Notes under the pieces: generated by a model | The model's input: only the letters and a program-made list of their open reading frames with translations | What the model was told of the DNA's origin: nothing | Database searches by the model: none | Position numbers and translations under genes: made by a program | Part shown: positions 17,250 through 50,706 of the stretch, in pieces | How positions within the stretch are numbered: position 1 is the first letter of the stretch | Layout: every line of letters begins with the position of its first letter | Assembly (NCBI GenBank): GCA_947466425.1 | Contig: CANIBZ010000009.1 | Location: forward strand, 1-64,000 | Direction of reading: 5' to 3' | Length of the DNA: 64,000 bases | DNA from: Flavobacteriales bacterium | Lineage (GTDB): Bacteria; Bacteroidota; Bacteroidia; Flavobacteriales_D; Sanyastnellaceae

Positions 17250-20200
17250 CTATTGATTCAATTCTGGATAACGGCGTATCAGCGCATCTTTTTGCTTTTT
17301 CTGCGTGTTTACGGAATAAGAGAATCGTTTTTTGCCGTCTTCAAAACGTTTGTTCTCGTCCTTTACATTCTTTATTATTTCAGCGAAAACCTCATCAGAA
17401 GTGCTAATGGTCATAATGTTTAACTTGTATTCGAACAAGTACCACGTGGCACCGTCGATTTGTATGTAAAGTCTGAAAATATCAGCCGAGCGTTTTTTCT
17501 CTATTTCAATTAACCCTTTGGTGTATTTAAAAATTTGTTTTTTGCCCATAGAGGCAATTCCTATAGGACCAATTGTAGTGAAAGTCTCGAGTGTATCGTG
17601 CCAGATCCATTTCAAATCACCAAAATAGAAAAGTTGTTGCAACTCTTCAGGCAGTTTTTTTAATTCACCGTCCAAAGCCATGTCGGCAATAACTTTATCG
17701 GATTTTTCTTCGCCTAAAAATTCAATTAAGCTCTTTTCAAATTGAGTTTTGCTTAAATCAATTGGATCCAAGTTCGCATTTACTAGTTTTTCGGCTAAGT
17801 GCTTTTGTGCTCCGTCATCAAATGGGAAATTTAACAAGGTAGTACTTTGAGCATTTAGAAGGGAATCAGCGGTTTTAAACTGAACCGTGCCAACAGACTT
17901 CATGGACATCATACCTAGGTCTATATTGAAATCCATAATTCCATCGCCTGTTAGTTCGCAGCTTGTGGTGTTTAGACCTAAGAGTTGTCCTGGTAATTTT
18001 GGTTGCCGAATTTTTTCCTTTGACCCAATAAAATAAGTCTTTTTAGTTTTGTCGAAATACAAGTATCCGGTAGACTCAATCAAACCCCTGTCATTTTTAT
18101 ACGATTTGGCACTTAAAAAACCGGGGTAAATTTTCATCGGTTGTTCATCTTTGATAATAACGCCAACACCTAGTTTAGACATAGACATGTCTCTTAATGT
18201 GCTGTCAATGGGGATGTAAATTTCTAACGGATTTATTTCAGATTTGAATTTGTAGAACGTGCGTGAAATACTGTTACAGTTGTGTAAAACACGCACCCCT
18301 CCGTTGAATGTAAGATTCGGATTGCTTGCATGTAATTCGAATCTGCCATAGTATTCGAAGGCAGGGGATAAGAAAAATTGGTCTTTCTCTGCTATTTCAC
18401 CGTAAGCAATCGTTTGGTAAGCCGAGTCTAAACGGAAATTACTTATGTGTATTTTCTGTTCCTTTTTATTTTCGTCTTTGTATATCAAATCACCGCTTCC
18501 TTCATATCTTTTTCTCCCGTCAATTTTTAAGGTGGCATTGAAAATTTTATGGTGTTGTGTTACGAAGTTGCTGATGACTTGAGCGCGCTCAAGCTTGCGC
18601 ATGTTGGCCCATTTCTCAATCACTACATAATTGCTATCGGGCTGAACTTTAGAGTCGGCCACAATGATATATTCTATCTTACGACAAGTAAGTAGTGTGT
18701 TTTTTAAGTCATACTTTGCGAACGGGGAAAGAAAGTTTAAACTATCCTGATTGGGATCAATGGAGTAAAAGTTGCTGCGTTTTTTTTCAGCATCGGTATC
18801 TATGACTAAATCGCTTGATGCTTTTCTGTTTGAAGATAATTCCATTTCAGATTTATCCATGAACCAAGTGAATTGATCCATATAGCAGATGTAGAAATTC
18901 GAGGGGAATTCAATTTTTGTTTCACCGCTGTTGCTCTTAAACATTCCTTTTCTCGCATCGAAATCAACGTCAGCGTTTACGTTGTCAGTTTTAAATGCAA
19001 GTGCTACGTCATCAGCGTTTGACTTTAGTTGAAACTGCGCTGTATCCGCTAGTATTTTTCTATTCTTGAATTTGAAGTTTTTAGACGAGAGCTTCGCACC
19101 AACGAAATCAGCATCACCGCTAGCAGTCATGCCTGTTGGTTCTAATCTCATCAATCCTTTGAATAAAGCCTCTTTAGAGAAACACTCAATTGATATTTCT
19201 TTGGTCGTAACTTCTAATTTATCTTTCTTTGGAGTGAAAGACAATTCTATTTTGCTTGAAGTAGCGTCTGGAACATTGGCTTTCTTATTGCCTTCGTTAG
19301 TGAAAGTAGACGCAGTGCCAAATACTTCATTCGGAACATACGTAAAAGCATCTGAGGTTGATGTAGAGGTTAAATAGTCCAACTTTCCTTTTCCAATAAA
19401 TCCTGAATTGTTCAGTGTTAAATCGCCAACAGTAGTTGCTTTTCCATCATAAGTGGGGTAACCGGAATCACCAGTTTTGACACGAAATCCCAAACTGAAA
19501 TCATCCATCAAGACAAGAGGCTCTTTTATATCAGGGAAAATGCCACCGCTGACAAGTGTTCCTATGAATTTTAAGTTTTTATTTTTAAAGTTGTCCAAAG
19601 AGTCCAACGTGAAGGGATCTACCTCATAATAAAAATCATTTTTTTTGTAAGCCCCTTTTTGAATGCTGTATTTATCCCAAAAAACACTGGAACTTTTGGT
19701 GCAAGTGAGGATTGGATAAGAAGGGTAATCCTTGCTGTGATATCCACTTTTATTTGTGGGATGATCAACTTGCAGTGTTCCAGAGAGTCCGGTAAGAACG
19801 TTTTTAATTCTTATCTTAGGATAATTTCCGTAATTATCTGGGGTACCTTCTAAATCATCAACATAGATTATGCACGAGTCAACTTCGGTCATTTCAAATT
19901 TGAATTGGTCATAAATGAAGTTGTATTTAGCACCCATTAATTCGAAGTTTCCTGTATTTAACCTGCCGCTAAAGCTGAAGTCTCTGTCTTTGTGTAATAA
20001 AATTTCTCCGTCAGTCGGGTATAAAAACACTTTCTGTGAATCACTTAAAAGAACAGAATTTACGCCTTTGATTAAAATATCTCGATCTAAGAGACTGAGC
20101 CTTGCGTTTTCGGCACGGCCAACCTCAGATAAAAATTGAATTGCATCGTAGTCTGCTTTTCCTTTTATGTTTTGAACGTGCTTGAATAATTTGTCAAGAA

Positions 20201-30183: not shown

Positions 30184-30786
30184 ATGGCGAATATTTTTGA
30201 ATTCAACGGATACATTCCAGTCATTCACGAGTCGGCGTTCATTCATCCGAATGCAACCGTAACGGGCAATGTGATCATTGGAAAGAACGTATACATTGGT
30301 CCGGGCGCGGCTATTCGCGGCGACTGGGGACAGATCATTATTTCAGACGGATGCAATGTTCAAGAGAATTGCACCATTCATATGTTTCCCGGAACCACTG
30401 TTGTCTTGGGTGAAAACGCGCACATTGGCCATGGAGCTATTGTGCACGGCGCGCAGATAGGCGCGAACACGTTGGTTGGAATGAATGCGGTGTTAATGGA
30501 CGATGTTGTTGTGGAAGAGGAATGCATCATTGGCGCGTTGTGTTTTGTGCCTGCGAAAACGGTTGTGGAAAGAAGAAGTGTGATGGTTGGAAATCCGGCC
30601 AAGAAGGTGAAAGAGGTGAGCGATCAAATGTTGGAATGGAAGACGGAAGGAACAGGGTGGTATCAGCGTTTGCCGGAAGAGTGTCGAAATACCTTGCGCG
30701 CTGTTGAACCGCTTCGTGAAATTCCTGCAGACCGAAAGGTTCAAGACACTAAGGGCTACGAAGCCTGGCACGAGCGGAAGTCATGA
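30184..30786 (+). CDS. paaY: PaaY-type hexapeptide-repeat protein (gamma-carbonic-anhydrase fold)
   Basis: This 200-aa left-handed beta-helix protein shows hexapeptide repeats (AFIHPNATVTGNVIIGKNV and following), with the metal-binding histidines in CTIHMFPG, HIGHGAIVHGA. The C-terminal helical extension (WYQRLPEECRNTLRAVEPL, KGYEAWHERKS) is typical of PaaY, a thioesterase acting in phenylacetate degradation, and separates it from shorter gamma-carbonic anhydrases. ATG 30184 follows the thiolase stop by 2 nt; the earlier in-frame start lies inside the thiolase. It overlaps the next gene by 4 nt. Confidence 0.82.
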   Translation: MANIFEFNGYIPVIHESAFIHPNATVTGNVIIGKNVYIGPGAAIRGDWGQIIISDGCNVQENCTIHMFPGTTVVLGENAHIGHGAIVHGAQIGANTLVGMNAVLMDDVVVEEECIIGALCFVPAKTVVERRSVMVGNPAKKVKEVSDQMLEWKTEGTGWYQRLPEECRNTLRAVEPLREIPADRKVQDTKGYEAWHERKS

Positions 30787-31460
30787 GTTTTCAGTTCAAG
30801 CAATTTTCTGTATCGCATGAATCGTCTTCCATGAAAGTGGGCACCGACGCGGTGTTGTTGGGTGCATTCATTCAAACAGAAAAACAAGAAAAAATTTTAG
30901 AAGTAGGAACGGGGTGTGGCGTTGTTGCGCTCATGTTGGCTCAAAAAGGAAATCGCGTTTTAGCCATTGACATTCATGCGCCATCTGTTGACGAAGCCCA
31001 GCAGAATTTTAGCAACTCCGTTTTCGCACCGTTGTTGATTGCCGATGAGATAGATTTTTTCAAGCTTCAGGCACCGGTGAAATTTGATCGCATTGTATCG
31101 AATCCTCCCTTTTTTCAGAACAGTTTGCAAGCACCTGATGAAGCGCGCAATGCCGCGCGTCACGCCATGAACGATTGGGTGAAACGCTTTTGGGAACGCG
31201 CACAGAAGTTAACCGGAAGGGTGAACGTAATTATCCCTGTTGAAGTCTTCGACGAATGGAAACGCGAAAGTGAATTGTCGAATTTTTTCTTGGTGAAGAA
31301 ATGCGAAGTCTTTTCTCGCTCCGACAAACCCGCTATTCGTTTCATCTTAGAATTTTATCGAATTGAACAACCGTTGGAGGAAACGTCTCTTGTTCTTATG
31401 AATGAAGAGGGGACGCGGACGAAGGAGTATGCGGAGTTTGCGGGGGAATACTATCTGTAA
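30783..31460 (+). CDS. trmN6: tRNA1(Val) adenine-37 N6-methyltransferase
   Basis: This 225-aa class I SAM-dependent methyltransferase has motif I LEVGTGCGVVALMLAQ near residue 38, the acidic AIDIHAPSV near 58, and the catalytic NPPFF near 104, which marks N6-adenine or related amino methylation. The N-terminus (FQFKQFSVSHESSSMKVGTDAVLLG) matches the YfiC/TrmN6 family. It overlaps the PaaY-type gene by 4 nt. The stop codon lies within a 7-bp hairpin that opens the repeat island. Confidence 0.85.
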   Translation: MSFQFKQFSVSHESSSMKVGTDAVLLGAFIQTEKQEKILEVGTGCGVVALMLAQKGNRVLAIDIHAPSVDEAQQNFSNSVFAPLLIADEIDFFKLQAPVKFDRIVSNPPFFQNSLQAPDEARNAARHAMNDWVKRFWERAQKLTGRVNVIIPVEVFDEWKRESELSNFFLVKKCEVFSRSDKPAIRFILEFYRIEQPLEETSLVLMNEEGTRTKEYAEFAGEYYL

Positions 31461-31541
31461 GTCTACAGATCAATCTGACTTCGTCAGATCAATTGCTTAA
31501 TGGAAGTGCGAGCTCGCTCTGCGAGCGGCATCCGAAATGCC
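31453..31541. repeat. Cluster of four perfect small hairpins after trmN6
   Basis: Four perfect inverted repeats occur in 89 bp: ATCTGTA/TACAGAT with loop AGTC (31453-31470, spanning the trmN6 stop); ATCTGAC/GTCAGAT with loop TTC (31473-31489); GCTCGC/GCGAGC with loop TCT (31512-31526); and GGCAT/ATGCC with loop CCGAA (31527-31541), directly abutting the previous one. No coding gene or RNA family is recognised. Confidence 0.85.
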
Positions 31542-31656: not shown

Positions 31657-31700
31657 CCCCCAGCTCTGCTGGGGGCAGTTCGGATGTCGCCCTAAGGGGC
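31657..31700. repeat. GC-rich hairpins in the repeat island
   Basis: CCCCCAGC (31657-31664), loop TCT and GCTGGGGG (31668-31675) form a perfect 8-bp GC-rich stem. Fourteen bases later GCCC-TAAG-GGGC (31689-31700) forms a 4-bp stem. There is no T tract after either, so they are not classical terminators. Confidence 0.75.
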
Positions 31701-31704
31701 TGAG

Positions 31705-31832
31705 GAACTACGTTGTTTGAACTTCGTTACTTGAACTTCGTTGTTTGAACTTACGTTGTTTGAACTTACGTTGTTTGAACTACGTTGTTTGAACTTCGTT
31801 ACTTGAACTTCGTTGTTTGAACTTACGTTGTT
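31705..31832. repeat. Tandem array of nine 14/15-bp units with higher-order structure
   Basis: Units in order: A GAACTACGTTGTTT, B GAACTTCGTTACTT, C GAACTTCGTTGTTT, D GAACTTACGTTGTTT, D again, then A, B, C and a final D lacking its last T. The order ABCD-D-ABCD shows duplication of a four-unit block. Each unit contains AAC...GTT around a 3- or 4-nt loop. A minus-strand reading frame across it (31692-31880) encodes only the repeat (NNVSSNNEVQVTKFKQRSS) and I do not consider it a gene. Confidence 0.9.
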
Positions 31833-31840
31833 AAATAACA

Positions 31841-31899
31841 GTCGAAGACATTCGTTGCTTCGCAACATTCGTGCTTGCACATTCGCCCGAAGGGCATTC
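31841..31899. repeat. Four consecutive [hairpin]-ATTC units
   Basis: In strict succession: GTC-GAA-GAC ATTC (31841-31853, with one A shared), GTTGC-TTC-GCAAC ATTC (31854-31870), GTGC-TT-GCAC ATTC (31871-31884), GCCC-GAA-GGGC ATTC (31885-31899). All stems are perfect and all differ in sequence, while the ATTC spacer is invariant. GTTA-AA-TAAC at 31830-31839 directly precedes them. The last unit ends 15 nt before the stop of the convergent SirB1-type gene. Confidence 0.88.
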
Positions 31900-31914
31900 T
31901 TTCTTAGAAAAAGA

Positions 31915-32796
31915 TCACTCCTCTATCTCAAGAAGCACACTCAACAACACCTGCAACTCCCTCACCTTATCGGCATTGTTCTGAGAAATATAATGGTGAC
32001 TTAGCGCATTTATGTTGCGAGTAACAACATCGGAGTTGGAACATGGATCGAAGAAACGCTGATCCAAAGGCAAGTGCTGACTGGAAATAAATTGCTCTAT
32101 TTCTTCTCGGTCGAGGATAGAACCGCCTGCAGCCGGGTTGATATAAAATAAAATTTCGTCCGTGTCGGTTTCGCCTTCTGGCAACAACCACTCTGGCATT
32201 TGTTCAACATAACACAACAAGAAATGCCCTGGTAAATTCACGCCGTAAATAGGCAAGTCTAAACTGCGAGCCAATAATAAATAAAGCGTACCCATGCTTA
32301 ATGAAGTACCCGTCTTCGAATTCAATACTTCGAACAACGAATGAGGAGCGTTCTGAATTTCTCCAGACACACTCGTATATCCACAAAGCTTGAATAAGAT
32401 ATGATTCAAAACATTTACCGTTTCCAAAGCGGTTAAACGGTCGTTTAACTCTAACCAAATATCCTGACGAAGACGTGAGAATAAATACGTAATCTCTTCA
32501 CTCGGAACATTGCGCTGATAATACTTATTCAAAATCAACATTCCTTCTAACAACTCTTGCTCACCCTTCTGCCATTCTTTTATAGCGGTGTATGTCGTCT
32601 TGTACTGAATATTCGCAATAATCTCAGACAAGCGCTGAAGCGCTAGTGGGTCTCCGCTTCCAATAATGAAGTGGTCTTCCAATGTGTGCAAGACTTCTTC
32701 GCCTTTCTCGGTAATGGCCTCACGAACCGTGTTGAAGATTACTTCATCCGGATCATCGAGCAATTGTATCAAAGCGTGAATATCAGTTCGACTCAT
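31915..32796 (-). CDS. SirB1/transglutaminase-like protein
   Basis: This 293-aa cytoplasmic protein starts with helical, HEAT-like sequence (DIHALIQLLDDPDEVIFNTV) to about residue 90. It continues with the SirB1 N-terminal domain: LNHILFKLCGYTSVSGEIQNAPHS near residue 129, LNSKTGTSLSMGTLYLLLARSLDLPIYG near 158, and LPGHFLLCYVE near 187. The active-site Cys of true transglutaminases is not evident, so it may be non-enzymatic. The function is unknown; SirB1 was once linked to virulence gene expression. It is transcribed toward the repeat island, away from the rhomboid gene. Confidence 0.78.
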   Translation of the reverse strand: MSRTDIHALIQLLDDPDEVIFNTVREAITEKGEEVLHTLEDHFIIGSGDPLALQRLSEIIANIQYKTTYTAIKEWQKGEQELLEGMLILNKYYQRNVPSEEITYLFSRLRQDIWLELNDRLTALETVNVLNHILFKLCGYTSVSGEIQNAPHSLFEVLNSKTGTSLSMGTLYLLLARSLDLPIYGVNLPGHFLLCYVEQMPEWLLPEGETDTDEILFYINPAAGGSILDREEIEQFISSQHLPLDQRFFDPCSNSDVVTRNINALSHHYISQNNADKVRELQVLLSVLLEIEE

Positions 32797-50308: not shown

Positions 50309-50311
50309 CTT

Positions 50312-50706
50312 TGTGGACCCGGCGGGGTTCGAACCCGCGTCCAAACAAGGAATCAAAAGGGTTTCTACATGCTTAGTTATTTAGTGGTTTTCGACAAGAC
50401 GCAGGTTAATAACATCCAAAATCTTGCTTATCCTGTGTTTTTAACCTCCGACTACAGAATTTGTCTTTGGCGATCTCCCTTCGGCGAAGCCTCATTACCA
50501 ACTACCAGGAGCGGGGTCGTTGGCGAGACTTACTTGTCTAACTCCTTGAGCTAGATTAAGCGTAATCACATACAGTGATTAGGCAGCAAGTGCGTATGAA
50601 TTGTTGTCAGTTATGACTGATACCCCGAGATTTAAGAGCGAGAATACCAAGCGCTCTGCATGCTTACAAATTGCTTCTTCTTGCTGTCAAATCCAAGGTC
50701 GGGCCC
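50312..50706 (-). ncRNA. ssrA: Transfer-messenger RNA
   Basis: tmRNA rescues stalled ribosomes and tags incomplete proteins for proteolysis. On the minus strand the 5' end GGGCCCG pairs with 3' CGGGTCC to make the acceptor stem. The T-arm reads GCGGGTTCGAACCCCGC, and the conserved CTAAGCATGTAGA lies before the 3' domain. The tag reading frame ends in NNSYALAA and stops at TAA (tag region 50579-50614); the resume codon is uncertain, ATA if spacing from the AGTC motif is as in E. coli. The CCA end is not encoded (ACA follows). One-piece form, about 395 nt. Confidence 0.95.

Follow-up and report, generated by a model that had tools for sequence, protein, structure and literature searches.

Clusters of short hairpins less than 15 nt apart have been described as intrinsic terminators that require no U-tract (Gupta and Pal 2021; PMC8355165), and they are the closest described analogue of the hairpin arrays reported here. 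The arrays likewise consist of short hairpins less than 15 nt apart, near a stop codon and on the sense strand, and they match the described clusters in distances, in cluster size and in beginning at most tens of bases beyond the stop codon; however, those clusters were computed from arbitrary sequence, whereas the arrays are built from perfect, modular hairpins joined by a constant linker and close with a conserved terminal unit. REP elements are defined as highly similar copies with a shared consensus motif (PMC12306157), and the GTAG and CGTC families, as well as BIMEs, attach a fixed unpaired tag to short palindromes, in many copies that lie mostly behind genes (PMC3733652). The arrays, too, are short palindromes in many copies per genome and mostly extragenic, but the known families have a consensus that includes the stem, whereas here one tag serves dozens of stems placed head-to-tail (72 distinct stems over four classes), no fewer than four tag classes occur together, and the arrays are oriented with the gene. 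In RAYT/REPtron systems, Y1 transposase genes are also found near palindromes, and the RAYT gene lies between two inverted repeat copies; the arrays, in contrast, do not stand on both sides of a transposase gene, the flanking palindromes belong to another family, and genomes with arrays may be without a Y1 gene.

CRISPR, integron attC and TIGR arrays resemble the arrays in being arrayed structured repeats. Here, however, there is no constant repeat with unique spacers, no associated gene set was seen, and the units are 9–14 nt long; unlike in CRISPR, what stays constant is 4 nt long and what varies is palindromic, and by inspection we found neither R/L boxes nor an attC hairpin beside cassettes. 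Nor do the arrays have the GC-rich stem of at least 5 pairs followed by a T-tract of a canonical intrinsic terminator. The preliminary description had recognized no CRISPR, attC or terminator layout in the sequence, and the lack of any Rfam match and of a canonical U-tract terminator bears this out. The double-hairpin elements of fungal mitochondria are likewise tiny hairpins with changing stems that are scattered intergenically, but they consist of two hairpins each, are organellar and have no constant linker. No description of a matching array was found in the literature searched, a search for which subscription journals and preprints were mostly out of reach.

The focal array lies in a 454-bp gap separating two convergent genes, called as long ORFs, in the window, that is, the whole 64-kb stretch of Flavobacteriales DNA that was analysed. 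The gene on the plus strand (30783..31460) encodes a TrmN-like small-domain methyltransferase, and the gene on the minus strand (31915..32796), upstream of the array, encodes a Transglut_core2/SirB1-like (transglutaminase-like) protein. Exactly as first described, 31841–31899 on the plus strand holds four perfect hairpins that are each followed by ATTC, namely GTC-GAA-GAC (31841–31849), GTTGC-TTC-GCAAC (31854–31866), GTGC-TT-GCAC (31871–31880) and GCCC-GAA-GGGC (31885–31895). After the last ATTC stands a fifth perfect hairpin, TTTCTTAGAAA (TTTC-TTA-GAAA, 31900–31910), 4 bp from the minus-strand gene's stop codon. The array, which we assign to the GAAT class (ATTC on the plus strand), is in sense on the minus strand and reads out of the gene at 31915–32796 as GCCCTTCGGGC-GAAT-GTGCAAGCAC-GAAT-GTTGCGAAGCAAC-GAAT-GTCTTCGAC, with the units at 31885..31895, 31871..31880, 31854..31866 and 31841..31849, respectively. 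Read in sense from the stop codon, with the probable fifth, gene-proximal unit TTTCTAAGAAA (31900..31910, minus strand) included, the order becomes TTTCTAAGAAA, GAAT, GCCCTTCGGGC, GAAT, GTGCAAGCAC, GAAT, GTTGCGAAGCAAC, GAAT, GTCTTCGAC.

Among these units, GTTGCGAAGCAAC occurs genus-wide and GTCTTCGAC, with a 3-bp stem and a GAA/TTC loop, forms a distal end that hardly varies within the class; GTCGAAGAC is the terminal unit in nearly all GAAT-class arrays, and in the 46 flanks compared the tail past the terminal unit is only weakly T-rich. The stems had been called unrelated, and they do differ among units, but they are not unique to the locus, being drawn from a recurring repertoire that includes GTC, GCC, GTGC, GTTGC, GCCC and GTCC.

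The gap contains further hairpins. A TCAA/CA-class array at 31453..31501 on the plus strand, ATCTGTAAGTCTACAGAT-CA-ATCTGACTTCGTCAGAT-CA-ATTGCTTAAT, is in sense to the methyltransferase gene, whose stop codon TAA (31458–31460) falls within its first hairpin. Next to the focal array, 31705..31832 is occupied by an array, without an assigned strand, of AAC-NNN(N)-GTT hairpins separated by CAAAC and similar spacers (TRF 14-bp repeat GAACTTCGTTGTTT); the 14-bp units between the two gap arrays are also hairpins (AACTTCGTT plus GTTTG), and some repeats near the focal array are near-homogeneous 14-bp tandems. No canonical U-tract terminator was found in the gap. Also between the two gap arrays, at 31657–31700, lies a REP-like double palindrome, CCCCCAGCTCTGCTGGGGG...GATGTCGCCCTAAGGGGC, of which a 21-nt core is also found next to an IS200-like transposase gene, in L107 and in G003 (L051). 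A palindromic stretch at 31507–31532, GCGAGCTCGCTCTGCGAGCGGC, resembles GAGCTCGC..GCGAG sequences on both sides of a Y1 transposase gene in G005 (L112). Elsewhere in the window, a tmRNA gene is located at 50311–50706 on the minus strand.

The arrays are not random. In the comparison with shuffled sequence that the preliminary description had proposed, chains in which the same 4-nt spacer joins at least three hairpins occurred 0 times in 100 dinucleotide shuffles of the window, and a search for CATTCGTTGCTTCGCAACATTC with at most three mismatches gave 49 matches in the 2.6-Mb genome and none for the reversed control. When clusters were picked by tag spacing alone, with no pairing required, the ATTC/GAAT tag yielded 44 clusters in the stretches read, and 150 of 168 inter-tag segments formed perfect hairpins. 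The same selection gave perfect hairpins in 42/46 segments for ATGA, 30/46 for TCAA and 10/13 for CCTC, and almost none for other tags. Besides the GAAT class, the genomes of the genus carry TCAA/CA, ATGA, AGR and CCTC classes, each with its own spacer. Many of the stretches read had been picked around known matches, and array density was taken from a separate unselected set, in which it was 3.75 per 100 kb in the own genome and 6.5 in the genus, compared with about 0.2 in shuffles.

Within this Flavobacteriales genus the array family was identified in eight of nine genomes, and in other genera in 0 of 51; G007 has no arrays in 120 kb, and a sample of 373 kb, drawn from 20 genomes outside the genus, contains no heterogeneous array and only one homogeneous tandem. 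A scan of 85,000 species genomes (257 Gb) returned only lake Flavobacteriales MAGs, the species labels of some of which are clearly unreliable, and eight scattered single matches, close to the 7–8 expected by chance for 18 fixed bases by our own arithmetic. The organisms that bear arrays are uncultured freshwater or lake MAGs. The longest array seen is an 18-unit ATGA-class array of CC..GG units (L183:19252–19501). In another genus, homogeneous CTAGTCNNTAGTCA tandems stand at both contig ends (L162 of G019, 51–292 and 19525–19731). At L001:1160–1419, a 48-bp unit is present in six copies, comprising the hairpins AAAACC-TTC-GGTTTT, TAC-TTC-GTA and AAC-TTC-GTT with ATTCC/ATTGG linkers.

The stems vary while their pairing is kept, as had been claimed from the four focal units. 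The 22 distinct 13-nt units pair in 98.2% of cells, and of the cells that changed, 14 did so on both sides and 0 on one side only; the 24 distinct 11-nt units pair in 99.0% of cells, the corresponding counts being 24 and 2. As a control, sliding the partner by 1–3 columns lowers pairing to 0–68%. The earlier proposal to compare orthologous loci was followed at three orthologous arrays (L092_5590, L101_10766 and L092_208), where the stems are unchanged and the loops variable (0/106 stem sites and 10/43 loop sites vary by hand count; Fisher p 1.8e-6), and whole units have been gained or lost between species. Loops are also biased in composition. Among distinct units with a 3-nt loop, 85% are closed by C-G (20% of background hairpins), 62% have a GNA or TNC loop (15%), and the combination C-(GNA or TNC)-G is found in 49% vs 3.9% of background hairpins. 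G-U wobble is almost absent from the stems, which fits selection on RNA only because stems of 3–5 bp cannot afford wobble; mismatches are few, with G-U and A-C counts of 3 vs 3 in one set and 3 vs 1 in another. The preliminary description had seen here the signature either of selection on structure or of a mechanism that writes hairpins; preservation of pairing despite stem change upholds that signature, which either process may have left.

The arrays begin 0–40 bp past stop codons and run in the direction of the gene. Of the GAAT-class arrays within 40 bp of a stop codon, 28 are on the sense side and 4 on the opposite side; for TCAA/CA-class arrays the counts are 13 and 0. Where a convergent gap holds both senses, the arrangement in which each array has the sense of its own gene was counted 10 times, from 9 distinct loci with one locus counted from both strands, and the other order once. 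Both orientations occur within 100–350 bp, and each array has the sense of the gene it stands behind, which excludes replication direction as the cause. Canonical U-tract terminators are scarce at these gene ends, being present within 100 nt of the stop codon at 1/45 array ends and 40/267 other ends (p 0.016), and within 220 nt at 5/53 and 62/280 (p 0.039), although arrays physically fill the space that a terminator would take and orthologous arrays inflate some counts.

Comparison among species shows that one class can stand in place of another. All nine species possess the focal gap (G002 has its second gene on another contig), and in eight of them it holds hairpin arrays of differing classes: GAAT, AAC and TCAA arrays in G000, TCAA-class arrays in G001, G002, G003, G004 and G006, and TAC/AAC-class arrays in G005 and G008. 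In G007, where the protein is 67% identical, the gap is 7 bp. Behind another stop codon, the array is of the GAAT class in G000, G004 and G006 and of the TCAA class in G005. Given that different classes are found behind the same stop codon, the array classes behave as interchangeable. Arrays also enter coding sequence. AGR-class arrays of 12-nt units lie in frame within a gene (KQDSSKDVSQDALQ in G000, DSLKGVIQDSSKGSSKDFSKGVSQ in G003; L100:13950–14080, L124, L125), the number of units varies between species, and the gene is a probable acetyltransferase, its flanks judged by eye.

Sense orientation, proximity to the stop codon, interchangeability and the low number of canonical terminators point to a function at the transcript 3' end. 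We tentatively favor, at somewhat below an even chance, the reading that the arrays are interchangeable hairpin-cluster 3'-end modules acting in termination and/or protection of the mRNA end, and they look like a modular means by which genes are marked or ended, one not described before. Such a module would have arisen within this genus, the focal array being one of many gene-oriented modules, and consists of 3–8 tiny perfect hairpins placed head-to-tail with a fixed 2–4-nt linker, starting at the stop codon or just past it. Transcribed into the 3' UTR, the hairpin cluster may pause or release RNA polymerase and/or block 3'–5' exonucleases, and in this way may substitute for a single-hairpin U-tract terminator. 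If pairing alone matters, and not stem sequence, the stems would drift by matched changes and the loops freely, a whole array of one linker class could be replaced by another behind the same stop codon, and units would probably be gained or lost through slippage or recombination between identical linkers, for example CGAATG. Several observations count against this 3'-end reading. As RNA, the focal array is no more stably folded than its shuffled versions (z +0.26), and over 50 arrays the minimum-energy fold contains 28–46% of the designed pairs with RNA and 53–74% with DNA parameters; the preferred loop, C-(GNA or TNC)-G, is a DNA mini-hairpin motif, the tail is only weakly T-rich, and the AGR arrays lie in coding sequence. 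A broader and more doubtful reading is that of a sequence-free, lineage-specific module, in which linker-plus-hairpin classes coexist and replace one another at the same stop codon, only perfect mini-hairpins and gene orientation would be inherited, a putative writer would spread the arrays, and coding sequence may be entered in frame.

Ordinary RNA stability, the preference for DNA folding and the scarcity of wobble led us to retain two alternatives to 3'-end modules. The first, which we consider unlikely, is selfish REP-like DNA, whereby a single-strand transposase (HUH/Y1, IS200/IS605-type) would recognize the short tag and hairpin structure, and not the stem sequence, and copy tag-plus-hairpin units into tolerated sites behind genes. 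The tag-plus-palindrome layout resembles that of GTAG/CGTC-tagged REPs (PMC3733652), the enriched loops include GNA, which gives extraordinarily stable DNA mini-hairpins (PMC4686876), perfect Watson–Crick pairing agrees with the better folding as DNA, and this genome has two Y1 transposase genes at no more than about 350 bp from a GAAT-class and a CA-class array. However, transposition does not predict opposite gene-sense orientations within one convergent gap of 100–200 bp. A resident RAYT appeared a promising writer from this proximity, but other observations speak against it: the Y1 genes are flanked by palindromes of another family and not by arrays on both sides, their proteins score as IS200/IS605 and not as REP-associated transposase (22.6 bits vs a cut-off of 80 for REP_Tyr_transpos), and G003, which is 96% complete and has 27 matches, is without Y1_Tnp.

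To the second alternative we give a still lower probability. It is purely mutational: template switching at short palindromes would keep the arms matched, slippage between spacers would multiply the units, and gaps behind genes would tolerate both. The excess of both-side over one-side changes is what template switching predicts (PMC8794818), and the duplication and loss of units at identical linkers, the in-frame arrays in a coding gene and the fact that a reverse transcriptase is neither needed nor found agree with it. Yet reverse-complement loops on one stem, the strongest mark of inter-strand template switching, are not enriched (9 cases vs 8.2 expected, P 0.44), and sense orientation, stop proximity and depletion of canonical terminators are left unexplained. 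Known template-switch hotspots, moreover, have arms longer than 3–5 bp. A reverse transcriptase, retron or DGR as the writer was rejected, RVT_1 being absent from all nine genomes of the genus. Chance or an ordinary low-complexity tandem repeat, finally, is refuted with near certainty by the shuffles, the tag-spaced hairpins and the genus-wide covariation.

These arrays preserve structure while their stem sequence changes, which makes them a natural experiment that recurs dozens of times in each genome and in different species, controlled by orientation and by position relative to the stop codon. Should they terminate or protect transcripts, rows of 3–5 bp hairpins would suffice for this; should a DNA process write them, it would be an undescribed hairpin-copying activity. 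In either case, the arrays bear on how perfect hairpins originate and remain perfect, and on how Bacteroidota end their genes.
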